64,000 nt of DNA from NCBI RefSeq assembly GCF_022227845.1, contig NZ_JAJNQN010000021.1, positions 1 through 64,000 of the forward strand, written 5' to 3'. The notes below the pieces were generated by a model, which ran no database searches, was not told the DNA's origin, and was given only the letters and a program-made list of their open reading frames with translations. This DNA comes from Ectothiorhodospira lacustris (GTDB lineage: Bacteria > Pseudomonadota > Gammaproteobacteria > Ectothiorhodospirales > Ectothiorhodospiraceae). Made by a program: the position numbers and the translations under genes. Below are positions 193 to 15,138 of the stretch, piece after piece (position 1 is the stretch's first letter; the number at the start of each line of letters is the position of its first letter).

Positions 193-1536
193 TCAGAACT
201 TTTTCTCTCCCAGCAGGGCGGCGGCCTCGCCGGTCAGGCGGCCGTTGCGGGCGCAGTCGTTCATGGCGATGCCCCGGTACGCGTTGCCGGTCAGGTGCAG
301 GCCCGGATAACGGCCCACGTGTGCCATCAGACGATCCATAGCTTCGATGTGACCCACCGGATACCCAGGCAGACCCCGCGGCCATTTCTTCACGAACTGT
401 ACGTCAGGCGAGACATCGATCCCCAGGGCCTTGCTGACGCCGTCGCGCGCGTGGGCAATGAGGGCGTCGTCATCCAGGTCGACCATGTGTGGATCCCGTT
501 GTCCGCCCAGCATCACGCGCACGCATTTCATGCCTTCCGGGGCGCGATCAGGGAAGATGGAACTGTCCCAAAGGATGCCGAGGAAAGGCATGCGGGCGGC
601 AGCCGTGGTCAGTACCCCGAAGCCGTCCAGAGGATGATCCAGGTGCTTCCAGCCGAAGCCCACCACGGCGATGGGGGCGTAGTTGACCGCATCCAACTGC
701 CGTTCCAGTTCCTGATCCAACCCTGCCAGGATGCGGGCGGCCACATGGGCCGGCACGGCCAGGATCACCTGATCCACGGTAGCCGACTGGTCGCCGGCTT
801 CGACCCGGAAACCCTTGCCTTCTTGAACCACGGCTTCCACCGGTGTGTCCAGGTGCCATTCGGCCTTGATCGTCTTATGCAGATGTTCCGTCAGGGCATT
901 CATGCCACCCTTGAAACTCATCAGCACGCCGCCGGGGCCGGCGCTCTGCTTGCGGCGGGCGATCATGCCCTTGAACAAGCCGCCATGCTTACGTTCCAAC
1001 TCCGTCACCAGGGGGAAGGCGGCCTTCACGGAGACCCGGTCGGCGGTGGTGCCGTAAATGCCGGCAGTCATGGCATCCAGGAAGATGTCGGTGAAGGCCT
1101 TGCCCAGACGACGGTAGCCGAAGGACTGCAGGGTTTCATCGCTGTCATCCCGCTTGGGGCGGATGAACAACTCGCCCATCACCCGCAGTTTCTGCGGCCA
1201 GTTGAGCAGTTCGGTCTTGAGGAATTTGCCCGGAGAGTCGGGCATGGGGTGCATGCGGTCGGTGTAAATGAAGCGTCTGCGGGAGGCATCCTGACTGCGC
1301 ATGAGCACGTCGCCGGCGCCGCAGTCCGTGACCAGTTGCAGCATGTCCGGTTTGTTGCTCAGAAAACCGTTGCCGCCTTCCTCAAAGCGAAAGCCTTCGA
1401 TGTCAATGGTGTGCAGGGTGCCGCCCACGTGGGGGTTGGCTTCGTAGATTACAATCTCCGCATCGCTTCGGGCGCGTTGCAGATAAAAGGCCGTGGCCAG
1501 ACCGCTGATACCGGCCCCGATAATGGCTACCCGCAT
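193..1536 (-). CDS. hemY: Protoporphyrinogen oxidase, HemY/PPOX type (FAD-dependent)
   Basis: Predicted 447-residue flavoprotein that oxidises protoporphyrinogen IX to protoporphyrin IX in heme (and possibly bacteriochlorophyll) synthesis. The N-terminus has the dinucleotide-binding motif GAGISGLATAFY (residues 7-18), followed by an E-A-N-P-H-V-G-G-T segment typical of the FAD amine oxidase/PPOX superfamily; the C-terminal GNAYRGIAMNDCARNG is the second FAD contact region. Length matches HemY/HemG-type PPOX (about 450-470). A strong Shine-Dalgarno, GGGAG, lies 6 bases before the ATG at 1536. It is the last gene of the long minus-strand run, 101 bases after ubiE. Related amine oxidases such as phytoene desaturase-like enzymes are possible alternatives but the motifs fit PPOX better. 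Confidence 0.85.
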   Translation of the reverse strand: MRVAIIGAGISGLATAFYLQRARSDAEIVIYEANPHVGGTLHTIDIEGFRFEEGGNGFLSNKPDMLQLVTDCGAGDVLMRSQDASRRRFIYTDRMHPMPDSPGKFLKTELLNWPQKLRVMGELFIRPKRDDSDETLQSFGYRRLGKAFTDIFLDAMTAGIYGTTADRVSVKAAFPLVTELERKHGGLFKGMIARRKQSAGPGGVLMSFKGGMNALTEHLHKTIKAEWHLDTPVEAVVQEGKGFRVEAGDQSATVDQVILAVPAHVAARILAGLDQELERQLDAVNYAPIAVVGFGWKHLDHPLDGFGVLTTAAARMPFLGILWDSSIFPDRAPEGMKCVRVMLGGQRDPHMVDLDDDALIAHARDGVSKALGIDVSPDVQFVKKWPRGLPGYPVGHIEAMDRLMAHVGRYPGLHLTGNAYRGIAMNDCARNGRLTGEAAALLGEKKF

Positions 1537-1637
1537 GGGTGTCTCCCTATTTTGTCTCTGAAATCGATGTTGTCAGGCCGCGATTCAGCCTGAAATGCTT
1601 GATGGCAATCGGATCATGTGCCCTGACATCCGGCACA

Positions 1638-2363
1638 TCACATGGTGGCGGATGCCCCCGGTTTGCGGGCGATGAAGCGCGTCGAGATTCCCAGAAATTC
1701 ATCCTTGACCTCCACCAACTCAAACCCGGCCTGGGTGAGTTTGTCACAGAGTTGCTGTGTGCTCATGAAGCCCTGGATGGACTCCGGCAGATAGGTGTAG
1801 GCCTCCTTGTCCCGGGAAATCATGGCACCGACACGGGGCAGCACCTTGCTCATGTACAGGCGGTTCATCCGATCCATCAGCGTGAGTTTTTCATGGCTCA
1901 TGAACTCCAGGATCACCGCCAGCCCGCCCGGTGCCAGCACCCGGTGAAACTCCCTCAGGGCGCCTTCCACGTCGAGCACGTTGCGAATGCCGTAGCTGAT
2001 GCTCACCAGGTCGGCGCTCCCATCCTCCAGGGGCAGGGCAGTGGCCGGCGCCTCCATGAACGTCGCATCATCCACCTTACGGCGGGCCAGTTCCAGCATC
2101 CCTACCGCCGGGTCCACGCCGGTGGCCCGTTCGATGGTCGTTCCACAGAATGCCGCCGCTTCGCGCCAGAACAGGATCAGGTCGCCTGTGCCGGTGGCCA
2201 CATCCACCAGGTGCCGCACCGGACCGCCGTGGATCTGCATGGCTGCCCGGCATCCGTTGCGGCGCCACTGCCGGTCCACCCCGAAGCTGAGAATGCGGTT
2301 CAGTTTGTCGTAGGTAGGGGAGATGTCGTTGAACATCTGGATGATGCGTTGCTGTTTGTCCAT
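1638..2363 (-). CDS. ubiE: Demethylmenaquinone/2-polyprenyl-6-methoxybenzoquinol methyltransferase (UbiE/MenG)
   Basis: 241-residue class I SAM-dependent C-methyltransferase. The opening MFNDISPTYDKLNRILSFGVDRQWR is a UbiE/MenG signature, followed by the SAM motif VDVATGTGDL (about residues 53-62) and the family motif SYGIRNV. UbiE performs the last methylation of menaquinone and a C-methylation in ubiquinone synthesis. Its position downstream of the men operon on the same strand suggests the menaquinone step (MenG) here; whether the genome has a second UbiE for ubiquinone cannot be seen. The gap to the upstream SRPBCC gene is 42 bases. Confidence 0.9.
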   Translation of the reverse strand: MDKQQRIIQMFNDISPTYDKLNRILSFGVDRQWRRNGCRAAMQIHGGPVRHLVDVATGTGDLILFWREAAAFCGTTIERATGVDPAVGMLELARRKVDDATFMEAPATALPLEDGSADLVSISYGIRNVLDVEGALREFHRVLAPGGLAVILEFMSHEKLTLMDRMNRLYMSKVLPRVGAMISRDKEAYTYLPESIQGFMSTQQLCDKLTQAGFELVEVKDEFLGISTRFIARKPGASATM

Positions 2364-2405
2364 GCAGGGTTCCAGTGCAAAGGGAGGGTGACGTGCGCCG
2401 CGACG

Positions 2406-2885
2406 TTATGTCTTTGATGGGGGCGGGCCATTGCGGCGCTGCGCCGCCTGGTCTTCGATCAAGGAACGGCGGATGCGTTCGAAGGCCTGGCGACTGATGT
2501 GATGAATGATCGGTCTGGCCACTCGGCCCACGGTCTTGTCCAGCAGTCGGGTGGGCAGATGGTATTCAATGGTGAGTTGCACCCGAGTGCCTCCGGGGAC
2601 GGAGGAAAAGCGATAGTGCCCGGTATTGCGGATACCGCTGAGGGACTGCCAGCGGATCATGTGCGGCGGCTTCTCGTCGACGATGGTCACATCCCAATGA
2701 AAGACCATGCCGTTGGCGCGGACCTGCCAGCGATAGGTCTTCTCGTTCAGGGGCGTGACGGATTCCACGGCATCGGCGTAGCGCGGAAACTCATCCACTC
2801 GACGGATCATCCCGAAGACTTCTTCCTGTTCCGCCGGAAACAGCATGTCATGATCAACGACCGGCATCTGGTAATCAGCTCCCAT
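2406..2885 (-). CDS. SRPBCC (START/polyketide cyclase-like) lipid-binding fold protein
   Basis: 159 residues with the look of the SRPBCC/Polyketide_cyc2 superfamily: a strand pattern containing HDMLFPAEQEEVFGMIRRVDEFPRYADAVESV near the N-terminus, a central RWQSLSGIRNTGHYRFS and a C-terminal helix ending in RIRRSLIEDQ. The fold forms a hydrophobic pocket for lipids, quinones or aromatic ligands; no catalytic role can be assigned. It lies between a DUF2867 oxidoreductase (35 bases upstream) and ubiE, which points to handling of a hydrophobic intermediate, but that is inference. The ATG at 2885 has no obvious Shine-Dalgarno; an ATG at 2867 preceded by GGGAG is an alternative start. Confidence 0.75.
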   Translation of the reverse strand: MGADYQMPVVDHDMLFPAEQEEVFGMIRRVDEFPRYADAVESVTPLNEKTYRWQVRANGMVFHWDVTIVDEKPPHMIRWQSLSGIRNTGHYRFSSVPGGTRVQLTIEYHLPTRLLDKTVGRVARPIIHHISRQAFERIRRSLIEDQAAQRRNGPPPSKT

Positions 2886-2920
2886 GAACGGCGGGGTAAG
2901 AAAGACCCCGCGTGGTTATG

Positions 2921-4423
2921 TCAAACACCGCCGGATGGGTCAAGAGACGGGACGGTTTCGGCCCGCCGGGCGATCCCCTCGGCCAGCCCCTTGAAGACAA
3001 AGGCATGGGCCGGTGCCATCAGGTACCAGTACAGTAGCCCCCACACACCGGCCGGGTGCCAGTAGTTGGTAACGGTGATCCGGGTTCCCTGGTCCTCCGG
3101 CATCAGTTCGATTTCCAGGACACCCGCCCCGGGGGCGCGCATCCCGAATCCCAGGGTGAGGCGTCTTTCCTGTTCGATGGCCATCACCCGCCAGGAGTCC
3201 ACCATGTCGCCGAGGCGCAGTTCGGTTGGGTGACGGCGCCCATAGTTGCGGCCGGGGCCTCCCAGCAGCCAGTCGATGCCTTCGCGGAGCTTCCACAGGG
3301 TCTCATAGGCAAAGTAGCGATTTTCTCCGCCGATGCGACTGACTACCTCCCAGACCTGGGTCGGGGTCGCCCGAGCCAGGGCGCTGCCACAGGCCCGCTT
3401 GGCGTAATAGGCGTAGTCCACCCGGTAGTCACGGAACATGAATGCCCCTTCGGTCCAGCGGGCGGCGACCGCGTGGGATTGTTCGGCTGCGAAGGTGGCG
3501 CGCACCGCAGTGCGAAAATCCATCAGGTCCTGGGGCATGAGACTGCGGGTACGCACATCATCGGCCACATAGTCTTCCTTGAGACCTTCGATCAGCGCCT
3601 GGGCGATGGCGGTGGGCACGGAGGTGACCAGGCGCAGCCAATAGGAGGACAGTTTGGGTGACAGCAGCGGGACCGGGACGATCCGTGGCGGTCTGCGCCC
3701 GGCCTCCTCGGCCAGGGTGCGCATCATGTCCGCGTAGGTGAGGTACTCAGGACCACCGGTGTCCAGGATCTCGCCGGCGGCCTCCGGGATGCGGGGGGCG
3801 CGCTCCAGGTAGTCGAGCAGATTATCCAAGGCGATGGGTGGGGACATGCGGGAGACCCACTTGGGGGTGACCATGACCGGCAGATGCAGGACCAGATCGC
3901 GCATCACTTCAAAGGCCGCCGAGCCGGGGCCGACGATGATGCCCGCGCGCAGTTCGGTGACCGGGACGCTGCCCTTGCGCAGTTCGTCACCGGTGAGGCG
4001 CCGGGAGACGATATGCTCGCTGCGGGCGGAGGCCGGGGCCAGCCCGCCCAGGTAGACGATGCGCCGGACACCGGCCTCGGCGGCGGCTTGGGCAAAATTC
4101 CTTGCCGCCTCCAGATCCAGACGGCCAAAGGACTTACCGGCACCCATGGAATGGACCAGATAGTAGGCGATCTGGACATCCTTGAGGGCCGGCCCCAGGG
4201 TCTCGGGCTTGAGGGCGTCGGCCGGGACCAGTTCGGCCCCCGTCCAGCCCCGGGCCTCCAGCACGCTCAGCGTACGTGAGCAGGCCCGAACCCGGATGCC
4301 CCGGTCCAGCAGGCGGGGTACCAGATTACTGCCGATGTAGCCGCTGGCGCCGAAAACCAGGGTCAGGGCATCCGGGCTGATCGCATTGTCTGCGGGTGTC
4401 TTCGAGGTGCCGGGTGTCGCCAT
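2921..4423 (-). CDS. NAD(P)-binding SDR-type oxidoreductase fused to a DUF2867 domain
   Basis: 500 residues in two parts. The first ~300 residues form an atypical/extended SDR Rossmann domain (LVFGASGYIGSNLVPRLL, then YYLVHSMG and VRRIVYLGGLAP). The last ~180 residues (from about WEVVSRIGGENRYFAYETLW) match the DUF2867 domain, an SRPBCC-like fold usually fused to such reductases. The substrate is unknown. I place the start at ATG 4423, which has GGAG 7 bases upstream; a GTG at 4450 would add 9 residues. A TATAGT box lies upstream near 4455-4460 on the minus strand, so the gene may have its own promoter within the men-to-hemY run. The adjoining SRPBCC gene suggests a joint function. Confidence 0.8.
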   Translation of the reverse strand: MATPGTSKTPADNAISPDALTLVFGASGYIGSNLVPRLLDRGIRVRACSRTLSVLEARGWTGAELVPADALKPETLGPALKDVQIAYYLVHSMGAGKSFGRLDLEAARNFAQAAAEAGVRRIVYLGGLAPASARSEHIVSRRLTGDELRKGSVPVTELRAGIIVGPGSAAFEVMRDLVLHLPVMVTPKWVSRMSPPIALDNLLDYLERAPRIPEAAGEILDTGGPEYLTYADMMRTLAEEAGRRPPRIVPVPLLSPKLSSYWLRLVTSVPTAIAQALIEGLKEDYVADDVRTRSLMPQDLMDFRTAVRATFAAEQSHAVAARWTEGAFMFRDYRVDYAYYAKRACGSALARATPTQVWEVVSRIGGENRYFAYETLWKLREGIDWLLGGPGRNYGRRHPTELRLGDMVDSWRVMAIEQERRLTLGFGMRAPGAGVLEIELMPEDQGTRITVTNYWHPAGVWGLLYWYLMAPAHAFVFKGLAEGIARRAETVPSLDPSGGV

Positions 4424-4510
4424 GGGAGATCTCCGGTGAGGGCTTGTCACTTTACTATACGGGGTTTTTCTCCTGCCTTGATGAACGTCTGTGTTTGACA
4501 GGTTTGGGTG

Positions 4511-4951
4511 TCAGGGCGCCGACGAGGAAGATCGTTCCCTGAGCAGCACCGTCAGTCGGCAGACGCAGACGGTTGTCTCTGCCTCGTCCTCCAGCCGGAT
4601 CTCCCAGACTTGGGTGTTGCGTCCCAGGTGTAGTGGCCGGGCACAGCCGAGGATCCGGCCGTGGCGGACGGACTTGAGATGACTGGCGCTGATCTCCATG
4701 CCCGCCGCCATCCATCCCGGAGGCGCCGCCAGGTTGGCGGCCACGCTGCCCAGGGTTTCGGCCAGGGCCACGGAGGCACCGCCGTGGAGCAGACCATGGG
4801 GTTGGCGGGTACGTGCGTCCACAGGTAGCGTCCCGAACAGGGCCGTGTCGGTGATTCGGGTGATCTCGATCCCCAGGGCTTCCATGAGGGTGCCCTGGTG
4901 GACGGCATTGATCGCCTCGAGGTCTATGGGGCGTTGCCACAGTGGCATCAT
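4511..4951 (-). CDS. menI: 1,4-dihydroxy-2-naphthoyl-CoA hydrolase (hotdog thioesterase)
   Basis: 146-residue hotdog-fold thioesterase of the YdiI/PaaI-type group. The key segment HGGASVALAETLGS (about residues 54-67) carries the catalytic Glu after the HGG turn, as in E. coli YdiI. Its position as the last men gene, two bases after the menE stop, makes the DHNA-CoA hydrolase role (releasing 1,4-dihydroxy-2-naphthoate for MenA) the best assignment. Two consecutive ATG codons (4951 and 4948) are possible starts. A generic acyl-CoA thioesterase is the alternative. Confidence 0.85.
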   Translation of the reverse strand: MMPLWQRPIDLEAINAVHQGTLMEALGIEITRITDTALFGTLPVDARTRQPHGLLHGGASVALAETLGSVAANLAAPPGWMAAGMEISASHLKSVRHGRILGCARPLHLGRNTQVWEIRLEDEAETTVCVCRLTVLLRERSSSSAP

Positions 4952-4953
4952 GG

Positions 4954-6360
4954 TCAGCGCTCCCGAGGATGCGGGGTATTGGCCAGCCGGATCAATTCTC
5001 GGCGCTGAATCTTGAGATCGCCGGTGGGCGGCATGGGCAAGAAGGTCGTCGGCACCATGAAGGGCTTGAGTTGTTCCCTGAGCCAGGTGCGCAGGGCATG
5101 GTCGTCCAGTTCCGCGTTGGACTGGATGAAGGCCACGGGACGGTGGCCGAACTCTGCGTCCTGTCGCGGCACCACCACCGCCCGGAGGATATCGGGGTGG
5201 GTATGCAGCAGGTGCTCAATGGCTTCCGGCTGAATGTTTTCACCACCGCTTATGAACTGATTGTCCAGTCTCCCCACCACCTGGAAACGGCCGTCCTCCC
5301 ATCGGCCCAGGTCACGGGTATGGAACCAGCCTTCCCCGTCGGTCGAGGGGAGGATGCCGCCCGAGTCCCGATACCCCAGGAACAGGGTGCCGCCGCGGAC
5401 CAGGATCTCGCCATCGGCGTCCAGACGGCATTCCCGGTGCGGCAGGATGCGGGCCGGCCCTTCCGGGGGCTGGGCGATCACCTGGGAACTCATTTCGGTC
5501 AGCCCATAGCTGGTCCAGCAGGGCAGGCCCTGCCGGCGTGCCTGTTCCAGCAGGGAGGCACGCACCGGTCCTCCCCCCAAGAGCAGGCACCGCAGGGTCG
5601 AAGAAGCAGGGTTTCCCTGCTTCAGCAGACGGTGTAGCTGGGTTTCCACCATGGAGACATGGGTGACGCCCATGTGCAGCAGAAAGCCGGCATTCTCGGC
5701 ACGCCCGTCCAGCACCAGGGCTGCGCCCCCCAGCAGGCAGCGAAACACGATGGCCAGGCCACCCACATGGTAGGTAGGCAGGGATAGCAGGTACCGGTCT
5801 CCCGGCCACAACGGGATGAGTGCCGCAGAACCGGCCGCACTGAGGACATGGTTGGCATAGCTGTGGACGGCCAGCTTCGGCCGGCCGGTGGAGCCGGAGG
5901 TCAGGATGCCCGTGCAAGGTGTGTGTGCCTGAAATCGGTGGCGTAGCGCCATGGCGGCAGGTGGCGAGGCCGAGGTGGTGACATCCCGATCGATCCTGAC
6001 GCTTGGTTGGAGGGGCCGACCAGGCTCCCGAACCAGCCAGCGGATACCCTGTTCTTGCAGCAATGTGCCCAGCGGGGTTTCCGGTATTGCCGGATTGACG
6101 GGTAACAGACAGGCGCCGCTGCGGAGTACGGCCAGCAGGTCGATGACGCCGGCCACCGTAGCCCGGGTGCGCAGGGCAATCCAGTCTCCGGCCTGAACAC
6201 CCCGGGCCAGAAAGGTTATGGCCCGCTGATCCACCCGTGCCTCCAACTCGGCGAAGCTCAGGCTGTCTTCGGGGGTGATGATGGCGGGTTCTTCGGCATG
6301 ACGTCTGCCTGCCTTCTGCAGCAGGCAGGGCATGTCGGCACAGGGCGGGTGGGGGCTCAT
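4954..6360 (-). CDS. menE: o-Succinylbenzoate--CoA ligase
   Basis: 468-residue adenylate-forming enzyme that activates o-succinylbenzoate to its CoA thioester. The phosphate loop reads LTSGSTGRPKLAVHS, the A5 motif SYGLTEMSSQ, and the hinge/A8 region GRLDNQFISGGENIQPEAIE; these are standard acyl-CoA synthetase motifs and the length matches MenE (about 450). I chose ATG 6360 because it overlaps the menC stop as ATGA, as the other men junctions do; the frame stays open for another 100 residues upstream without similarity to the family. Confidence 0.92.
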   Translation of the reverse strand: MSPHPPCADMPCLLQKAGRRHAEEPAIITPEDSLSFAELEARVDQRAITFLARGVQAGDWIALRTRATVAGVIDLLAVLRSGACLLPVNPAIPETPLGTLLQEQGIRWLVREPGRPLQPSVRIDRDVTTSASPPAAMALRHRFQAHTPCTGILTSGSTGRPKLAVHSYANHVLSAAGSAALIPLWPGDRYLLSLPTYHVGGLAIVFRCLLGGAALVLDGRAENAGFLLHMGVTHVSMVETQLHRLLKQGNPASSTLRCLLLGGGPVRASLLEQARRQGLPCWTSYGLTEMSSQVIAQPPEGPARILPHRECRLDADGEILVRGGTLFLGYRDSGGILPSTDGEGWFHTRDLGRWEDGRFQVVGRLDNQFISGGENIQPEAIEHLLHTHPDILRAVVVPRQDAEFGHRPVAFIQSNAELDDHALRTWLREQLKPFMVPTTFLPMPPTGDLKIQRRELIRLANTPHPRER

Positions 6361-7355
6361 GTCCAGCATCCAAGGTATTCCAGTTCGGCTTGTGGTGTGA
6401 TCGGCAATGCGTGGTGTTCCGGTTGGCTGAGAATGGGCATCAGCAGTGCCCGGGCAAATATACCGAAGGTATCCAGACCTTGGGGACCCCGGATGTCCCA
6501 GTGGTGGACGAGGCGTGCATAGAGGTCCAGGCTGAGATTGCTTTCGTAGGCGGCACTGAGAATGGCGGGAATGCCTCGTCGGCGGGCCTGATGAACCAGG
6601 ATGCTGCTGCGGTTCAGGCCGGTGAGCATGGGCTTGATGACCAGGGCGCCCAGTCCCGGTGTCCACAGATCGGGTGTCTTCCCCTCTCTCAAGGTCTCAT
6701 CCCAGGCGAAGGGGATGCCGGTGTGCGGCCACCACTGTCGGTAGTCGCTGCCGGCCCGCAGGGGTTCCTCGATGAATTGAATCCGTTGCCGGTCAATGGC
6801 CTGACAGAGCGTTTCGGCCTGTTCCAGGTTCCAGGAACGGTTGGCATCCAGACGCAGCCACTGGCCTTCGGCAAGTTGTGCCGCCACATGCTGGATCCTG
6901 TCGATATCCGTCGCCAGGGCGTCACGTCCCACCTTGAGTTTGAAGCAAAGGGGTTCCGGATCATCCGCAAGGTCCAGGGCGTCGTCGTGACGGATCAGGC
7001 AGCACCGCGGGACCGAGGCCGCTGGTGGCAGGTGTTGAGTCCATTGCAGCAGCCCGGCTTCCAGGCCGAAACGCACTTCCGGTGCGGTCGTGGTCGGCAG
7101 ATGACGGAAGCGGTCGGCCGGTGCGCCGCCCCGGTCCAGGATCTGCCGGATCTGCTGCAGGCACTGATCCAGCGTGGCCTGGCTGAAACCGGGCAGGGGG
7201 CTGATTTCGGACCAGAGGCTGTCCGCGCGGGGACGACACCACTCCAGCAACAGTCCCTCTCGTTGGGTCAGGCGGTGCCCCGGCATGGGCAATGGCTGCC
7301 TGAGGGGAAGGGAGAAACGCCAGAGCCGCATTTCATGAGGGGGGCGTGCTTCCAT
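6357..7355 (-). CDS. menC: o-Succinylbenzoate synthase (enolase superfamily)
   Basis: 332-residue enolase-superfamily enzyme that dehydrates SHCHC to o-succinylbenzoate. Expected residues are visible: FKLKVG with the catalytic Lys pair region, DANRSW and EEPL and WDETL supplying the metal ligands, and VIKPMLTG with the second catalytic Lys. The start is uncertain. ATG 7355 has AGGA about 11 bases upstream; ATG 7331 (MRLWRF) and ATG 7406 are alternatives. It follows menB after a 70-base gap, the widest gap in the men run, and overlaps menE by 4 bases. Confidence 0.9.
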   Translation of the reverse strand: MEARPPHEMRLWRFSLPLRQPLPMPGHRLTQREGLLLEWCRPRADSLWSEISPLPGFSQATLDQCLQQIRQILDRGGAPADRFRHLPTTTAPEVRFGLEAGLLQWTQHLPPAASVPRCCLIRHDDALDLADDPEPLCFKLKVGRDALATDIDRIQHVAAQLAEGQWLRLDANRSWNLEQAETLCQAIDRQRIQFIEEPLRAGSDYRQWWPHTGIPFAWDETLREGKTPDLWTPGLGALVIKPMLTGLNRSSILVHQARRRGIPAILSAAYESNLSLDLYARLVHHWDIRGPQGLDTFGIFARALLMPILSQPEHHALPITPQAELEYLGCWT

Positions 7356-7425
7356 GGGTGGTCCGTTCCTGTCGGTGGCCAGCCCCGGGTTTGCGCCCCT
7401 CTCCATGAAGAGGGGCCGGCACGGG

Positions 7426-8277
7426 TCAGGGCTGGCGTCTGAATTTACGGAAATCGGGCTGGCGCTTCTCCAGATAGGCGTTGCGGCCTTCCTGTCCCTC
7501 TTCGGTCATATAGAAGAGCATGGTGGCGTTGCCGGCCAGTTCCTGGATGCCGGCCTGGCCGTCGACCCCGGCATTGAAGGCGGATTTGAGCATCCGCAGG
7601 GCGATGGGGGAGTGCTCCAAGATCCGGCGACACCAGGCCACGGTCTCCTGCTCCAGTTGCGCCAGCGGAACCACGGTATTGACCAGACCCATGTCCAGGG
7701 CTTCCCGGGCATCGTACTGACGGCACAGGAACCAGATCTCCCGGGCCTTTTTCTGGCCCACCACACTGGCCATATAGCTGGCACCGAAGCCGCCGTCAAA
7801 GGAGCCCACCTTGGGGCCGGTCTGGCCGAAGCGGGCATTGTCCGCGGCAATGCTCAGGTCGCAGATCAGGTGCAGCACATGGCCGCCGCCGATGGCGTAG
7901 CCGGCCACCATGGCGATCACCGGCTTGGGGCAGGAGCGGATTTCTTTCTGCAGGTCCAATACGTTCAGATGATGGACGCCCTGTTCATCCTGGTAGCCGG
8001 AATCACCGCGGACTCGCTGATCACCCCCGGAGCAGAAGGCCAGATCCCCCCGGCCGGTGAGGACGATGACGCCGACCGCTTCGTCAAAGCGGGCATCCGA
8101 CAGGGCCTGGCGCAGTTCCTTGACCGTCCGGGGACGGAAGGCGTTGCGGACCTCCGGGCGATTGATGGTGATTTTCGCGATGCCCTCGGCTTTGTGGTAC
8201 AGGATATCTTCATAAGGGGCCGAATGGTCCTGCCAGTCCAGTGCCGGGGTGATGGAAGAGACTGCTGCTGTACTCAT
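7426..8277 (-). CDS. menB: 1,4-Dihydroxy-2-naphthoyl-CoA synthase
   Basis: 283-residue crotonase-fold enzyme that cyclises o-succinylbenzoyl-CoA to DHNA-CoA. The oxyanion-hole segments [10 protein letters not shown] and [19 protein letters not shown] and the MenB-specific [14 protein letters not shown] are present; the last motif carries the Gly linked in the family to bicarbonate-assisted (type I) MenB. The C-terminal [20 protein letters not shown] is also diagnostic. It overlaps menH by 4 bases (ATGA). Confidence 0.95.
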
Positions 8278-9086
8278 GAGGATGCTGTACTCGTTTGTGT
8301 GAAGTGCATGGGATGGCAGAGTCGGCGCATGACGGCGGCCACCTGCTCGGGTGCCTGAGCGTGGCAGTTATGCCCCAGACCGTCCAGTTTGACAAGTTCA
8401 AGCCCCGGGCAGGCATGGGTCAGCCCCTGCCCCAGGGCGCTGAATTTGGTGTCCCGGGTGCCTGCGATGAAGGCCCGGGCACAGGTCAGTCCAGCCAGAC
8501 CGGGGCGAAGATCCGGCTGACCACTCAGACCAGCGGCACGCAGTACCCGGGCCAGTGTCATCGGGTTCTGACAGGATCGGGCCTGGACGAAGGCATCACG
8601 CTGGGCGGGGGACAGGTCGGCAAACACCGGTTGCTGATACCAGTCCTCCAGGACCCGGGGCCAGGGTTCCTGTTCGAGCCGCCGGGCCCAGGCCTCGTCA
8701 TGGCGCCGCCGCGCCAGCCGCTCCGTTTCGCTATTCAGGCCCGGGTGGGCGCCCTCCAGGAGTAGGACGGCGATGCGTTCGGGATGGCGGATTGCCAGCC
8801 AGGCGGCTATGCGCCCACCCATGGAATAGCCCGCCAGGCCGACGTGCGGAGGCAGTGCTGGCGCCAGTTGCTGCCAGAGCCGTTCACAATACTCCTCGAA
8901 GTTCAGGTCCGCGGAAAGGGATTGACCGGCATGGCCCGGCAGGTCGGGCATCAGGCAGTGGTACCGGTCTGAAAGTAGCCGGGCCGTTTGCAGCCAGTCA
9001 TGGCCGCTGCCCATGAAGCCGTGGAGCAGGACCAGGGTGGGGTGATGGACGGCGCCCAGTGACGCTATGACGGGTTGCCGGGTCAT
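8274..9086 (-). CDS. menH: SHCHC synthase (alpha/beta hydrolase)
   Basis: 270 residues, (1R,6R)-2-succinyl-6-hydroxy-2,4-cyclohexadiene-1-carboxylate synthase, which eliminates pyruvate from SEPHCHC. The alpha/beta-hydrolase features are [12 protein letters not shown], nucleophile elbow GYSMGGR and the late His in LGHNCHAQ. It overlaps menD and menB by 4 bases each, so translation is probably coupled. Size and context agree with MenH rather than a generic hydrolase. Confidence 0.9.
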
Positions 9087-10783
9087 GTCTCATAGCGGAC
9101 TTCCACCAGGGCGCTGATCAGGCCCTTGATGATCCGGCTGCTCTGGTTGTGGGGAAAGTTCAGTTCGATCAGGGTAACACCGCCCTTGCGGCAGGCATCG
9201 CTATAGGTTTTTTCAAAACCGGCGGCCGAATCCGGGTTTGCGTAGGCCAGGCCGAACAGGGCCGCCGCGCTGCGAAACGTCAGGCCATGGGGCAACTGGA
9301 ACAGGGCTTGGAAATGCTCCTTCTGTTCCGCGGCGGGTAGCAGATTGAAGATCCCGCCGCCGTCATTGTTGAGGACCACGATGATCAGCGGGTGGTGACA
9401 GCGGGGTGCCAGTGCCAGGCTGTTCAGATCATGGAGCAGGGACAGATCGCCGATCAGCAGGGTCGCCCCGGCTGGATGACCCATGGCCAGGCCCATGGCC
9501 GTGGCCACCAGCCCGTCGATGCCGCTGGCCCCCCGGTTGGTGATGCAGCGATTGCCCCGTCCAGGCCGGGCGACCATGTCCAGCAGCCGGATGCTCAGAC
9601 TGTTGCCGGGCAGCAGCAGCATGTTCTCGGGGATCATGTCGGCGATGATGCGGGCAGCGGCCGGCTCCGAGAAGGGATAGGTCAGCGTCAGCTCCAGATG
9701 TTCGCTGAGTTGGGACTGCAGGGATTCGATACCCAGCCCCCGCTGAGGCGGGACTCGGAGCTGGTTGCAGAACTCAGGAATCGAGGCCTGTATCTGGGTG
9801 GCGTGGTGCTCCGGGTCCAGGCCGTCCTCATGGGGGCTCACCAGCCAGTACTGGCCCTGGAAGCACGCCAGCCATTGGTTGATTCGCTTACTGGTAATGC
9901 GGCCGCCGAACTGGACCACCTGATGCATGGCCTTGAGACGGCGCCTGACGTGGGTGATCGCCAGCAGCAGGTCCGGATGGGCCAGCACGCAGGGGTGCTC
10001 CCGGAGACGTAATTGACTGCCGATGTCGGCCAGAATGGGCACTGAGGCCGTTTCGGCCAGGGCCAGGACCGCCTCAGCCTCTTCGGTGTCCAGCTGGCCG
10101 GCGACGAAGATCACCGGCTCCCTGAGCCGGTGCAGGCTGAAACCGGGATGCGGGGGCGGAGACATTTCCACCGGCGGCACGTCGGCCAGCCAGGGACCGA
10201 AGTCGATGGAGTCCGAGGTGCCGTAGAGCGGTTCACGAAACGGCACATTGATGTGGACCGGCCCCCGGTCAGGTCCTCGCAGTCGGGCAAGGACCGCATC
10301 CAGCTGCTGGGCCAGCCAGCCGCCGGACAGCGTGGCGTCGGGGGGCGGCAGATTCAGGGCCGCCCGCGTATGGCTCTGGAAGATCCCCGGCTGGACGATG
10401 GCCTGGTTGGCGCCGCAGCCCACCAGTTCCTCAGGGCGATCGGCGGTGACCGCCACCAGGGGCTGATGGGTCTGGAAGGCCTCCACCAGGGCCGGGTGCA
10501 GGTTGGGTACGGCGGTGCCCGAGGTGGTGATCAGGGCGACCGGACGTTGCCCGGCCTTGCATAGCCCCAGACCCAGGAAGGCCAGGCCCCGCTCATCGAA
10601 GTGGGTATGCAGCCCCAGGTCGGGATGGTCGTCACGATAGCGGGCGGCCGCCAGGGACAGCGGTGCACTGCGACTGCCCGGCGCCAGACAAATATCGCGG
10701 ACGCCGTGCTGATAGAGACGGTCTATCAGGAGGTGCGCCCACGCCTCGTTGATATGAGTGAATGCTGCCCGCATGATCGACAC
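9083..10783 (-). CDS. menD: SEPHCHC synthase (ThDP-dependent)
   Basis: 566-residue thiamine diphosphate enzyme adding 2-oxoglutarate-derived succinic semialdehyde to isochorismate. Typical MenD features: APGSRSAPLSLAA near the N-terminus, TTSGTAVPNLHPALVEA with the ThDP Glu region following, ANRGASGIDGLVATAMG-like segment (here TNRGASGIDG) and VLNNDGGGIFNLLP, the ThDP-metal motif. Start may be GTG 10783, directly abutting the menF stop, or ATG 10774. Confidence 0.95.
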   Translation of the reverse strand: MSIMRAAFTHINEAWAHLLIDRLYQHGVRDICLAPGSRSAPLSLAAARYRDDHPDLGLHTHFDERGLAFLGLGLCKAGQRPVALITTSGTAVPNLHPALVEAFQTHQPLVAVTADRPEELVGCGANQAIVQPGIFQSHTRAALNLPPPDATLSGGWLAQQLDAVLARLRGPDRGPVHINVPFREPLYGTSDSIDFGPWLADVPPVEMSPPPHPGFSLHRLREPVIFVAGQLDTEEAEAVLALAETASVPILADIGSQLRLREHPCVLAHPDLLLAITHVRRRLKAMHQVVQFGGRITSKRINQWLACFQGQYWLVSPHEDGLDPEHHATQIQASIPEFCNQLRVPPQRGLGIESLQSQLSEHLELTLTYPFSEPAAARIIADMIPENMLLLPGNSLSIRLLDMVARPGRGNRCITNRGASGIDGLVATAMGLAMGHPAGATLLIGDLSLLHDLNSLALAPRCHHPLIIVVLNNDGGGIFNLLPAAEQKEHFQALFQLPHGLTFRSAAALFGLAYANPDSAAGFEKTYSDACRKGGVTLIELNFPHNQSSRIIKGLISALVEVRYET

Positions 10784-12226
10784 TCAGGATTCCAGCACGG
10801 CGAGAAAGGATTCGATCTTGGCTTCCAGCTCGTTCCATTCCGCCTCGGGATCGGAGCCTTCCACGATGCCGACACCGGAGTAGCACAGTGCCTGGTTGCG
10901 ATGGAGCAGGGTGGAACGGATGGCCACGGCAAATTCCGAGCGCTGCGGACAGATCCTGCCGATCACGCCGCTGTACCAGCCGCGGTGGGCGGTCTCCTGT
11001 CGGCTGATCAGGTCCCGGGCCTCGCTGCGGGGAAAGCCGCAGACCGCCGGGGTGGGGTGCAGGGCGGCCAGCAACTGGTCATCGCGCACACCTTCCCTGA
11101 GGGTGGCGTGAATGGGCAGGTAACGGTGCTGGATGCGGTCCAGCTTGAAGATGCGGGCCTGGGCGGGACCCTCGATCTGTGTGATCCAGGGGGCGATCTG
11201 CTCGCGCACATACCGGGTGACCAGTTCATGCTCATGGATTAACTTGGGGTCCTGCAGCAGGATGCGCTCCAGTGCCGTGTCTTCTTGTGCCGTGCCGCCG
11301 CGGCGTACGGTGCCGGCCAGGGATTCGGTGAACACGTGGCGGCCCACGCGACTGAACAGCCGCTCCGGGGAGCATCCCATGAACAACCGTTCTCCGTTTT
11401 CCATGGCAAAGCAGAAACTGCCCGGGTTGCTCTGGTGCCAGCGCTCCAGGGTCAGGAAGGCAGGTGGGGGGGCAGTCAGCTGCAGATCCACCCGTCGGGC
11501 CAGCACCACCTTGCGGATGAGGCCCTGGGTGATGTGTGTGAGGATGTTGCCGATATGCCGACTGCAGGTGTCAAAATCCATGTGATCGACGCGCCGGGTG
11601 ATGCGGACCGGCGGAGGGAGCGGACCGTCCGCCGTTGTCTGACGCAGGTGGCACAGGGCGGCGATGAGTCGCGTCTTGCGGGTCATGAAATCCCGCCGCG
11701 AGCCCGCCAGCAGGTTGACGCCCAGGCGGTATTGTCCCGCCTGTCGGCGCAGCTCGATGGCCGGCAGCACGAAGCGGGCCGCAGGAAACCCCTCCCAGTC
11801 ATCCCGTCCGGGCAGGCCGTCGAAGGAGAGGCCGCCGATGAAGGCGGTGGCTTGTCCACCGAGGGTGTCATGGACCCGGCGCAGCAGGGCAGGATAGGCG
11901 GCGGCTTCCCGGGCGCTCAGCTCCACGGCGATGCCGATGCCGGCGATGCTTTCGTCCCCTTCCCGATTCTGCCACAGGCTGCGCTCGCCGGCCGGTGCGG
12001 CCTGCAGCCAGCGGAAGGGACTGGTCCTCGGGACGGGCACGCTCAGGTGCAGCAGGTGGTCGCTGCGGAAGGACCAGTTCTTGATCCGGCCCAGCAGGGT
12101 TTCCACCGCCCCATGCAGGGGGCTGCCGGTATCCAGACAGTCGCCTCCGGCATCTCGGCCCACGCCCGGAGTACCGGCGCCCAGGGGCTGGTCGAGTGAT
12201 ACCGGATATTGACTGACTGATGACAC
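10784..12226 (-). CDS. menF: Isochorismate synthase
   Basis: 480-residue chorismate-utilising enzyme converting chorismate to isochorismate, the first menaquinone step. Diagnostic segments are KVVLARR, FMGCSPERLFSR, ESLAGTVRRGG, HEHELVTRYVREQI, LHPTPAVCGFPR and WYSGVIGRI near the C-terminus. I chose GTG 12226 because AGAGG lies 7 bases upstream; a TTG at 12244 would add 6 residues. It heads the men operon. Confidence 0.93.
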   Translation of the reverse strand: MSSVSQYPVSLDQPLGAGTPGVGRDAGGDCLDTGSPLHGAVETLLGRIKNWSFRSDHLLHLSVPVPRTSPFRWLQAAPAGERSLWQNREGDESIAGIGIAVELSAREAAAYPALLRRVHDTLGGQATAFIGGLSFDGLPGRDDWEGFPAARFVLPAIELRRQAGQYRLGVNLLAGSRRDFMTRKTRLIAALCHLRQTTADGPLPPPVRITRRVDHMDFDTCSRHIGNILTHITQGLIRKVVLARRVDLQLTAPPPAFLTLERWHQSNPGSFCFAMENGERLFMGCSPERLFSRVGRHVFTESLAGTVRRGGTAQEDTALERILLQDPKLIHEHELVTRYVREQIAPWITQIEGPAQARIFKLDRIQHRYLPIHATLREGVRDDQLLAALHPTPAVCGFPRSEARDLISRQETAHRGWYSGVIGRICPQRSEFAVAIRSTLLHRNQALCYSGVGIVEGSDPEAEWNELEAKIESFLAVLES

Positions 12227-12335
12227 GGTACATCCTCTGAACAAGTGGCCGGCCTCGCGCTCCCGTTCCGGATCGCCCGGCGGCTCCGGGGGGCGGGCAG
12301 GATCCGTCGCCGTCGTGAAGCGCCGCCCGCCGAAA

Positions 12336-12341
12336 ATTATA
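12336..12341 (-). promoter_or_regulatory. Candidate -10 element of the men operon
   Basis: On the minus strand these bases read TATAAT, a perfect -10 hexamer, about 110 bases before the menF start codon. No good -35 hexamer precedes it, which would suit an activator-dependent promoter. The implied transcription start is near 12329. Confidence 0.5.
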
Positions 12342-12364
12342 AAAACCGGTTAATGAGGGCAGAT

Positions 12365-12378
12365 ATGACTTATATCAC
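12365..12378. promoter_or_regulatory. CRP/FNR-family-like operator upstream of menF
   Basis: The plus strand reads ATGACTTATATCAC. It scores about 7 of 10 against the FNR pattern TTGAT-N4-ATCAA, and the slightly wider TATGA-N6-TCACT scores 8 of 10 against the CRP pattern TGTGA-N6-TCACA. Its centre lies about 42 bases upstream of the start inferred from the TATAAT box, the usual position for class II activation by this regulator family. This is a prediction only. Confidence 0.4.
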
Positions 12379-12483
12379 TTTGGATTGTGCCACAGGAGGG
12401 ACGTTCCGAAATGCCGTGATAGCGGCATCATGGATCACCGGGTCAGCTATATGTTAATAAAAATGGGTTGCAAGTCAGTCCTG

Positions 12484-12512
12484 CTTGAAAGCCCGCTGCC
12501 CCGGCCCAATAT
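12484..12512 (+). promoter_or_regulatory. Sigma32 (heat-shock) promoter of clpB
   Basis: CTTGAAA at 12484-12490, a perfect sigma32 -35 core, is followed after 14 bases by CCCAATAT at 12505-12512, close to the CCCCATNT -10 pattern. It lies about 40 bases before the clpB start. The htpG gene in this window has a matching element. Confidence 0.8.
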
Positions 12513-12552
12513 CCAGGATTAATCTGACATAGTCTCAAGGGGTTTTGCCACC

Positions 12553-15138
12553 ATGCGCATGGACAAATTCACCAGCAAGTTCCAGATGGCACTGGCCGAT
12601 GCCCAGTCCCTGGCGGTGGGCCGTGATCACCAGATGATCGAACCGATACATCTGATGATCGCCCTGCTGGACCAGGCGGGGGGATCGGTACGGCCCCTCC
12701 TGGCCCAGGCCGGTGTCAATGTGAACCTGCTGCGGTCCCAGTTGGGGGAGGCCCTGGAGCGCCTGCCCAGTGTGGAGGGGGCCGCCGGTGACCTGCATAT
12801 CTCCAACGACCTGGGCCGGCTACTGAATCTGTGCGACAAGCTGGCGCAGGATCGCAAGGACCAGTTCATCTCCTCCGAGCTGTTCGTGCTGGCGGCCCTG
12901 GAACATCAGGGGCAGCTGGGAGAAGTGCTCAGAAAGACCGGGGCGGCCAAGGGGGCCATCGACCGGGCCGTCAACGATCTGCGCGGTGGTCAGCGGGTGG
13001 AGGACCCCAACGCGGAGGAACAGCGCAAGGCCCTGGAAAAATACACCATCGACCTCACCGAGCGGGCCGAGCAGGGCAAGCTGGATCCGGTGATCGGTCG
13101 TGACGAGGAAATCCGCCGTGCCATTCAGGTGCTGCAGCGCCGCACCAAGAACAACCCCGTTCTCATCGGTGAGCCCGGCGTGGGCAAGACCGCCATCGTT
13201 GAGGGGCTGGCCCAGCGCATCGTCGACGGCGCGGTGCCCGAGGGTCTCAAGGACCGGCGGCTGCTGTCTCTGGACATGGGATCACTCATCGCCGGGGCCA
13301 AGTTCCGCGGCGATTTCGAAGAGCGTCTCAAAGCGGTGCTCAGCGACCTGGCCAAGCAGGAGGGGCGAGTGATCCTGTTCATCGACGAGCTGCACACCAT
13401 GGTGGGTGCCGGCAAGGCGGAAGGCTCCATGGACGCGGGCAACATGCTCAAGCCCGCCCTGGCCCGAGGCGAGCTCCACTGCATCGGTGCCACCACCCTG
13501 GACGAATACCGCAAGTACGTGGAAAAGGATGCCGCCCTGGAGCGGCGTTTTCAGAAAGTGCTGGTGAACGAGCCCAATGTGGAAGACACCATCGCCATCC
13601 TGCGCGGCCTGAAGGAACGCTATGAAGTCCATCATGGGGTGGACATCACGGATCCTGCCATCGTCGCCGCCGCGACCCTCTCCCATCGCTACATCACGGA
13701 TCGGCAGCTACCGGATAAGGCCATCGACCTGGTGGATGAGGCAGCCAGTCGCATCCGCATGGAGATCGACTCCAAGCCTGAGAGCATGGATCGTCTGGAA
13801 CGGCGTCTGATTCAGCTCAAGATCGAGCGCGAAGCCCTGAAGAAAGAATCCGATGAAGCCTCCCGCAAGCGTCTGGAGGCCCTGGAGGTGGAGATCGAAA
13901 AGCTGGAGCGGGAGTATTCGGACCTGGATGAGATCTGGAAGGCGGAAAAGGCCGCCCTGTCCGGCACCGCCTCCATAAAGGAGGAGTTGGAGCGGGCCCG
14001 TCTGGAACTGGAGACCGCCCGCCGGGCCGGCGACCTGGGCCGCATGTCCGAGCTGCAGTACGGCCGCATTCCCGAGTTGGAACGGCAACTGGACATGGCC
14101 GCCCAGGCGGAAATGCATGAGATGCGACTGTTGCGCAACAAGGTGACCGAGGAAGAAATCGCTGATGTGGTGTCCCGTTGGACCGGCATCCCCGTCTCCA
14201 AGATGCTGGAAGGTGAGCGGGAAAAGCTGCTGCGCATGGAAGAAGCCCTCACCCGGCGCGTCGTGGGTCAGGGCGAGGCGGTCAAGGCCGTCGCCGACGC
14301 CATCCGCCGTGCGCGGGCAGGGCTTTCCGATCCCAACCGCCCCAATGGTTCCTTCCTGTTCCTGGGCCCCACCGGGGTGGGCAAGACCGAACTGACCAAG
14401 GCCCTGGCTGCGTTCCTGTTCGACACCGAAGAGGCCATGGTGCGCATCGATATGTCGGAATTCATGGAGAAACATTCCGTGGCCCGGCTCATCGGTGCCC
14501 CGCCGGGCTATGTGGGGTACGAAGAAGGTGGCTATCTGACCGAGGCGGTCAGGCGCAAGCCCTACTCGGTGATCCTGCTGGATGAGGTGGAAAAGGCCCA
14601 TTCGGACGTCTTCAACGTGCTGTTGCAGGTGCTTGATGACGGCCGTCTCACCGATGGCCAGGGTCGCACCGTGGATTTTCGCAACTGCGTGATCGTGATG
14701 ACCTCCAATCTGGGTTCCCAGTTGATCCAGGAGATGGCCGGAGAGGAACGCTACGACGAGATGAAGGCAGCGGTGATGGAGGTGGTCGGCACCCATTTCC
14801 GCCCCGAGTTCATCAATCGTGTGGATGAGGTGGTGGTCTTCCACCCTCTGGGTCGGGAACAGATTCGCGCCATCACCACCATCCAGCTGGATTATCTGCG
14901 CCGCCGCCTGGCGGAGCGCGACCTGCAGCTCACGGTGTCCGAGGCGGCCTTGGACCGGCTGGGCGAGGCCGGGTTCGATCCGGTCTACGGGGCCAGACCC
15001 CTGAAGCGGGCGATTCAGCAGCAACTGGAAAACCCGCTGGCCCAGCGTATCCTGCGGGGCGAGTATCATCCCGGTGACGCCGTGGTGGTGGATTGCGCCG
15101 GGGAGGGGCTGACCTTCGGCAAGGATCGTCCGAGCTGA
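12553..15138 (+). CDS. clpB: ATP-dependent disaggregase ClpB
   Basis: 861-residue AAA+ disaggregase that works with DnaK to rescue aggregated proteins. The N-terminal repeat domain begins with the ClpB-type [20 protein letters not shown]. Walker A motifs are GEPGVGKT (residues 206-213) and GPTGVGKT (605-612), with a long coiled-coil middle domain (about 405-525, rich in E, K and L) between them, which distinguishes ClpB from ClpA/ClpC. Length agrees with E. coli ClpB (857). AAGGGG upstream serves as ribosome-binding site, and a sigma32-type promoter lies at 12484. Confidence 0.98.

Follow-up and report, generated by a model that had tools for sequence, protein, structure and literature searches.

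The 64,000-nucleotide stretch of Ectothiorhodospira lacustris DNA analysed here (contig NZ_JAJNQN010000021.1, positions 1 to 64,000; the window) carries two minus-strand genes between a men operon and a UbiE/MenG methyltransferase gene. The first (2921..4423) encodes a 500-residue protein of the YbjT family, in which a short-chain dehydrogenase/reductase (SDR) is joined to a DUF2867 domain, and the second (2406..2885) encodes a free 159-residue SRPBCC protein of the Bet v 1 or helix-grip fold; both assignments come from Pfam domains and structure models. A tie of the SDR to menaquinone genes beyond the window operon is supported in Thioalkalivibrio, Thiocapsa and a Burkholderiales metagenome-assembled genome (MAG), and a link between the SDR and menaquinone is on the whole probable. 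A more specific scheme, in which the pair would form an accessory module of late, membrane-bound menaquinone metabolism, is plausible and put forward tentatively. The genomic tie to menaquinone prenylation and methylation provides a first concrete lead on the function of YbjT-type proteins, which range from enterics to Chloroflexota.

Co-occurrence was followed through 47 genomes of the order, all from one family (Ectothiorhodospiraceae). An SDR orthologue is found in 25/47, menD exceeds its cut-off in 17/47, and menB does so in the same 17. The SDR is present in 17/17 menD-positive genomes and in 8/30 menD-negative ones, giving a Fisher value of 4e-7, which overstates independence because the genomes are related. 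Within the window's genus, menE, menI, the SDR, SRPBCC and hemY form one block in all ten genomes, and ubiE stands between SRPBCC and hemY in nine of the ten; it is absent there in G006, where a UbiA-type gene lies beside hemY. Between the window and G002, dN/dS by two methods each is 0.06-0.12 for the SDR and 0.09-0.13 for SRPBCC, with 0.07-0.14 for ubiE, 0.03-0.07 for menB and 0.06-0.18 for menD as comparison genes. The conservation of the block is more than chance would give.

A second setting is found in Thioalkalivibrio, where the SDR lies beside menA and the men genes are elsewhere (in G012, menD is at 1.66 Mb and the SDR at 2.10 Mb). An SDR orthologue above 500 bits occurs in 14/30 genomes of this genus, and a menA-type gene accompanies it in 13/14 SDR-positive genomes vs 0/16 SDR-negative genomes at that strength; its identity is backed by 178 bits to TIGR00751 in G014 (cut-off 102). 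The one exception without menA, G031, comes from a 58% complete assembly with a contig of 3.6 kb. In 12/13 genomes menA and the SDR are direct neighbours on a single contig; in G034 they are split between the ends of two contigs. SRPBCC is encoded at most 1 kb from the SDR in 12/14 genomes, the other two SDRs standing at a contig end. A cyclic-nucleotide (cNMP)-binding protein is encoded between SDR and SRPBCC on the opposite strand (L062, L085); a "mid" open reading frame (ORF) in the same interval proved antisense to it and was discarded. Small cNMP-binding proteins next to the SDR are seen in Thioalkalivibrio (L062:11054-11668) and in two Burkholderiales loci (L101:2712-3203 and L097:1000-1485). 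Chance co-location in one family, spread by descent, would account for every linked pair seen belonging to Ectothiorhodospiraceae; this explanation is extremely doubtful, given two settings within the family (the men operon in the window's genus and menA in Thioalkalivibrio), a third in Thiocapsa, where the SDR has men genes beside it in another order, and a fourth in Burkholderiales.

The SDR is not confined to genomes with a recognised menaquinone route. MqnC exceeds its cut-off in 0/47 genomes of the order and menB tracks menD, so that none of menD, menB and mqnC is over cut-off in the eight menD-negative genomes with an SDR; seven of these have the Thioalkalivibrio menA. SDR, SRPBCC and menA are all retained without menD, menB or mqnC over cut-off in G014, G035, G037 and G038 (loci L064, L069, L065 and L043, respectively), which are 96-99% complete. 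Compared between G014 and L087, menA, SDR and SRPBCC are free of stops, with dN/dS of 0.04-0.15. One explanation would be a stand-alone late-quinone module of MenA, SDR-DUF2867 and SRPBCC. With it, such Thioalkalivibrio would make menaquinone from imported dihydroxynaphthoate or prenylate another aromatic acceptor, and the SDR would act on the prenylated quinone in a new NADPH-dependent reaction of His/Arg type. This is quite unlikely; were it true, E. coli YbjT would be an unrecognised quinone enzyme.

Beyond the order, the best 80 SDR loci from named genomes were inspected (the Thioalkalivibrio ones overlapping in part with the genomes of the order set), together with a class sample of 370 genomes at least 90% complete, in which at most four candidates were scored per genome and SDR copies may be missed. 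Among the matches listed for the best 80 loci, YbjT-type SDR-DUF2867 proteins extend from enterics to Chloroflexota. men genes lie near the SDR in four Thioalkalivibrio loci (menA), in Thiocapsa sp. KS1 and in one Burkholderiales MAG; the remaining loci have no men gene near the SDR at the limits used. In Thiocapsa sp. KS1, the SDR, a hydrolase, menF, menD, menB, menA and menC follow one another on one strand, and then a penicillin-binding protein. The Burkholderiales MAG (L092) encodes near the SDR a MenA of 193 bits, over the TIGR00751 cut-off, and UbiE. UbiE is also found near the SDR in L101, and a 35% match lies about 7 kb off in L135. A MenB-like match in L124, at 32% only, was not counted, and NCBIfam (E 1e-20) does not class the methyltransferases adjoining the SDR in L094, L108 and L113 as UbiE, although L108 and L113 pass the PF01209 cut-off. 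In L108, a Burkholderiales MAG, two different SDR-DUF2867 genes stand in tandem beside the methyltransferase (L108:10010-13040).

Neighbours recurring within 8 kb of the SDR, over 35 groups, include generic ABC ATPases (10), response regulators (9) and plain SDRs (5). A UbiE-like methyltransferase (one of them, in L108, not UbiE by NCBIfam) recurs at 4/35 groups, as do serine-acetyltransferase-like, CoA-transferase-like and xanthine-dehydrogenase-like proteins, while the menA place, cNMP-binding proteins, lipocalins and two more reach 3/35; names given without a profile scan are a reading of the sequence. ubiE and menA rank high among the neighbours of the SDR, in company with other genes. In a tree of 83 rows, the 14 men-linked copies are spread over Ectothiorhodospiraceae, a position next to Thiorhodococcus (Thiocapsa) and the Burkholderiales, with E. 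coli YbjT in a separate enteric clade. The men-link label changes 7 times on this tree vs 13.2 times in shuffles, with L101 counted for ubiE alone and some men links concealed by contig ends. The family and order of G262 (5 genomes) added nothing.

menD is enriched in genomes that carry the SDR. In the class sample, the SDR is found in 10/370 genomes, menD in 25/370 and both in 6, leaving menD in 19/360 SDR-negative genomes (2 of the 360 from the window's own family); without that family, menD occurs in 3/7 SDR genomes vs 19/358 (p 0.006). Among 50 named SDR genomes, a menD match is present in 24/50 and exceeds the cut-off in 23/50, vs 19/360 in the SDR-negative class genomes, a comparison between different samplings (the 50 include incomplete MAGs) that covers the menD route and not the futalosine route. 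To arrive at these 50, 30 of the 80 loci were dropped as near copies: those of Aeromonas, Photobacterium, Psychromonas, a Vibrio, enterics and Yersinia, two of Thioalkalivibrio and two of Dehalococcoidia. When the own family, Chloroflexota, Aeromonas, vibrio-like genomes and enterics are set aside, menD is over cut-off in 13/35 named SDR genomes, and counted by hand-made lineages it is found in 7/23 vs 19/360 (p 3e-4). The menD-positive SDR genomes include Halomonas, Thalassotalea, Motiliproteus and Steroidobacteraceae.

The SDR-DUF2867 protein itself was characterised by its domains, a structure model and an alignment. In the ORF at 2921-4450, Pfam identifies NAD_binding_10 (E 5.7e-14) and DUF2867 (E 8.1e-22); the NAD(P)-binding Rossmann domain covers residues ~17-337 and DUF2867 ~338-489. 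The presence of both domains in one chain is the YbjT-family architecture, and a full-length alignment with YbjT orthologues holds. A hydrophobic helix (GVWGLLYWYLMAPAHAFVF) closes the DUF2867 domain, with a similar helix in E. coli YbjT. The structure model has a mean predicted confidence (pLDDT) of 92.5. A fold search with the first 337 residues gives complex I chains as the best matches (Z 29.5, root-mean-square deviation 2.6, 295 residues aligned), and complex I or supercomplex chains make up 46 of the 50 rows listed; this list spans residues 10-337 of the model, the SDR domain, and not DUF2867. By profile, matches 1 and 3 are likewise complex I chains (9g83_P, E 7.8e-17; 6gcs_E), so that NDUFA9/NUEM, the 39-40 kDa complex I subunit, ranks with the nearest solved structures to the SDR domain by profile and heads the fold list. 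The GxxGxxG nucleotide motif is kept in an alignment of 66 rows (G25 and G31 in 66/66, G28 in 65/66) and Arg50 is invariant. The Tyr-x3-Lys pair of classical and extended SDRs is replaced by His137-x3-Arg141 in 66/66 rows, whereas the bacterial complex I subunit 9g83_P has Tyr-x3-Lys aligned at that place. Since both residues are invariant, His and Arg may be catalytic in a new manner.

NDUFA9 is an atypical SDR with bound NADPH beside the quinone site, and in complex I it acts as a non-catalytic subunit or in assembly. The window protein could by analogy be an NAD(P)H-sensing, non-catalytic subunit or assembly factor of a quinone-reacting complex, an explanation favoured by the fold score over 295 residues, the 46/50 complex I rows, the two profile matches and the loss of Tyr/Lys in all 66 rows. 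It is nonetheless improbable: the invariant His/Arg are possibly catalytic, the likeness stops before DUF2867, and no respiratory complex subunit is encoded next to the pair in the window operon.

The SRPBCC protein (ORF 2406-2885) matches Polyketide_cyc2 (PF10604, E 7.6e-13) and Polyketide_cyc (PF03364, E 3.5e-11) in Pfam, and its model (pLDDT 87) has a plain helix-grip fold, the superfamily being reached by profile and by fold. COQ10-type proteins are ubiquinone carriers. The SRPBCC protein shares the helix-grip fold of these COQ10/START-type quinone carriers and is over the cut-off for PF03364, yet PF10604 scores higher, and among solved proteins a profile search places DR_A0006, TTHA0849 and the uncharacterised 3p9v closest to it. 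Its sole NCBIfam match, LIC10604, is far under cut-off. Relatives on plasmids comprise 42 records, all below 60% identity and 28 of them in Pantoea. An earlier note on this DNA had assigned a hydrophobic-ligand fold to both proteins; that description suits the free SRPBCC protein. For DUF2867, the predicted order of strands and helices is compatible with the SRPBCC fold and weak Pfam matches are seen (AHSA1, E 0.022; Polyketide_cyc2, E 0.081), but hhalign between the DUF2867 profile and that of the free SRPBCC protein gives a probability of 0.9%, and detectable homology between the two was not supported.

From these features we infer a scheme that is conditional as to substrate, membrane side, catalysis and carrier role. 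The SDR-DUF2867 protein would bind NAD(P)H through its NDUFA9-like Rossmann domain, would be held on the inner membrane by the hydrophobic C-terminal helix of DUF2867, and would act on or guard a prenylated naphthoquinone, either after MenA and before MenG/UbiE or once it has entered the pool. The SRPBCC protein, by analogy with COQ10-type proteins, could be a lipid-pocket carrier of the same prenylated (demethyl)menaquinone. The two steps that recur as neighbours, MenA and MenG, have membrane-bound prenylated substrates, and for this reason an accessory role following prenylation is the best fit.

The proposal, in the same earlier note, that the pair handles a quinone or isoprenoid intermediate is borne out as far as the SDR is linked to menA, men genes and ubiE and menD is enriched with it; reduction of the ring or side chain does not hold up as a general role. 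Menaquinone-8 of E. coli is fully unsaturated, and the family occurs in E. coli, which makes such a role, and side-chain saturation by the SDR in particular, unlikely. A tailoring enzyme of this kind would suit an SDR domain with a lipid-pocket partner beside menA and ubiE. However, members are also found in Aeromonas, vibrios and other groups with unsaturated menaquinones, the known side-chain reductases (MenJ) belong to another family, and the classical SDR pair is absent, so that this alternative is very improbable.

Several observations weigh against the accessory-module scheme and the menaquinone link behind it. SRPBCC relatives occur in 45/47 genomes of the order (E up to 1e-5), many of them at 30-42% identity and in genomes that lack the SDR; in G046, menD, SDR and SRPBCC are all present with SDR and SRPBCC 1.5 Mb apart; and among the best 80 loci a similar SRPBCC lies near the SDR solely in five Thioalkalivibrio loci. 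Most SDR copies are away from men genes, often beside unrelated ones, and the seven class-sample copies outside the family show neither ubiE nor any men gene across the 8-20 kb surveyed. The excess of men genes in SDR flanks is modest: ubiE fills 2 group-places, menB 1, menD 1, menF 0 and hemY 0, and 39 other window ORFs fill 5 from 4 ORFs (including clpB of Halochromatium), with menA, menC, menE, menH and menI left out of the queries and some of the 39 ORFs probably antisense. Other kinds of genes recur near the SDR as often as ubiE does. Furthermore, 27/50 named SDR genomes are without menD over cut-off, among them 5/5 Woeseiaceae, 3/3 Halieaceae-grouped genomes and several other MAGs, and in the fold list other SDRs begin at Z 27.3, about 2 Z units under NDUFA9. 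In E. coli, YbjT (b0869) resembles the window protein in its SDR and DUF2867 domains (~40% identity) and C-terminal hydrophobic helix, but its gene lies in poxB-ltaE-ybjT and not with men. This operon is described with poxB and ltaE (PMC2759082), is given in an HU regulon table (PMC2634741), and ybjT is a table row in a promoter study (PMC7567609). A proteome atlas reports YbjT as tethered to the inner membrane and predicts links to the envelope-antigen (Rff, Rfb) pathways (PMC2672614), which do not favour a quinone role. In the literature searched, a part that leaves most subscription journals outside, no function or functional assay was found for YbjT and no function for DUF2867, a name that turns up there in a single paper, on osteopontin. 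The terms ybjT and menaquinone coincide there in one paper, on Raman spectra.

These points lend some weight to a reading in which the YbjT family would serve general membrane-lipid or isoprenoid housekeeping, acting on common lipids or damage products, the men neighbourhood being one of several convenient sites. The SDR of menD-negative Woeseiaceae, Halieaceae and others, the varied neighbours (Blc lipocalin, cNMP-binding and CBS proteins) and the E. coli operon with poxB and ltaE are all in its favour; it is possible but doubtful in view of the menA, men and ubiE linkage in separate lineages and the enrichment of menD. The menaquinone link is accordingly not exclusive, because the SDR alone occurs near unrelated genes and in menD-negative genomes, and because SRPBCC relatives are found in 45/47 order genomes vs 25/47 for the SDR. 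The co-occurrence survey that the earlier note had called for gives a divided answer. menD is enriched with the SDR, and among the best 80 loci and the seven class loci the SDR-SRPBCC pair is seen only in Ectothiorhodospiraceae, so not widely beside unrelated genes; but the SDR alone often has unrelated neighbours, and it also occurs in menD-negative genomes.

The remaining genes of the window block are all on the minus strand. Along transcription the order is menFDHBCEI, SDR, SRPBCC, ubiE and hemY. MenF (10784..12244; TIGR00543 isochorismate synthase, 288.4 bits, cut-off 224.75), MenD (9083..10783; TIGR00173, 405.3 bits, cut-off 244.2), MenH (8274..9086; TIGR03695, 231.1 bits, cut-off 208.55), MenB (7426..8277; TIGR01929, 462.8 bits, cut-off 342.7), MenC (6357..7406; TIGR01927, 165.5 bits, cut-off 130.55) and MenE (4954..6375; TIGR01923, 351.9 bits, cut-off 330.15) are followed by a MenI-like hot-dog thioesterase (4511..4951), whose closest models, EntH and dihydroxynaphthoyl-CoA (DHNA-CoA) hydrolase, both score under their equivalog cut-offs. 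UbiE/MenG (1638..2363; NF001244, 249.6 bits, cut-off 216) and a HemY-type protoporphyrinogen oxidase (193..1536; TIGR00562, 294.8 bits, cut-off 97.85), the last gene of the conserved block, complete the series. The coordinates, strands and Pfam domains of the two ORFs at 2406-4423, and their place between the men operon and UbiE/MenG, had been described correctly from the outset. Across the settings seen, MenA to MenI and MenG share an operon with the pair or directly adjoin it, and neither SDR nor SRPBCC matches any Men NCBIfam model over cut-off, in agreement with the view that neither is a known menaquinone-pathway enzyme. Neither appears to fill an evident gap in the pathway, as the block supplies menF to menI together with menG, and a MenA-like gene, below the menA cut-offs, lies elsewhere in the host genome.

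The block is tightly spaced, with 87 bp between menI and the SDR, 35 bp between SDR and SRPBCC and 42 bp between SRPBCC and ubiE (from ORF ends). The ATG at 4423 is the SDR start common to close relatives, and a GTG at 4450 gives the longer ORF. A TATAGT box at 4455..4460 (minus strand) had been read as a promoter for the pair; comparison with G002, G007 and G008, in which the bases AAAAACCCCGTATAGT are kept, identifies it instead as the final codon plus stop of the menI frame in relatives (G007 reads ...LREKNPV-stop). Relative to G007 and G008, the window has about 60 extra bases at 4455-4515 ahead of the ancestral menI end, so that MenI stops earlier and has an altered C-terminus. A scan for the sigma-70 consensus, and for that type only, found no site between menI and the SDR, and a separate promoter for the pair was set aside. 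A light-regulon idea (LitR, photolyase) was likewise dropped. A scan of 1500-12600 found no terminator-like site, and in G006 the menI and SDR genes share 4 bases. A single transcript of the pair with men would be the simplest reading.

A few further observations concern the surroundings of the SDR. CBS-domain proteins lie near it in L090 and L097, and a Blc-type lipocalin follows it in Halorhodospira (L088:11501-12199), with similar ORFs near the SDR in L111 and L084. In a Thermoflexaceae MAG, a heliorhodopsin gene stands directly ahead of the SDR-DUF2867 gene (L120:8838-9851). Finally, clpB flanks menF in the window and is also found two genes past the SDR in Halochromatium (L090:12303-14924), perhaps reflecting an old shared neighbourhood.

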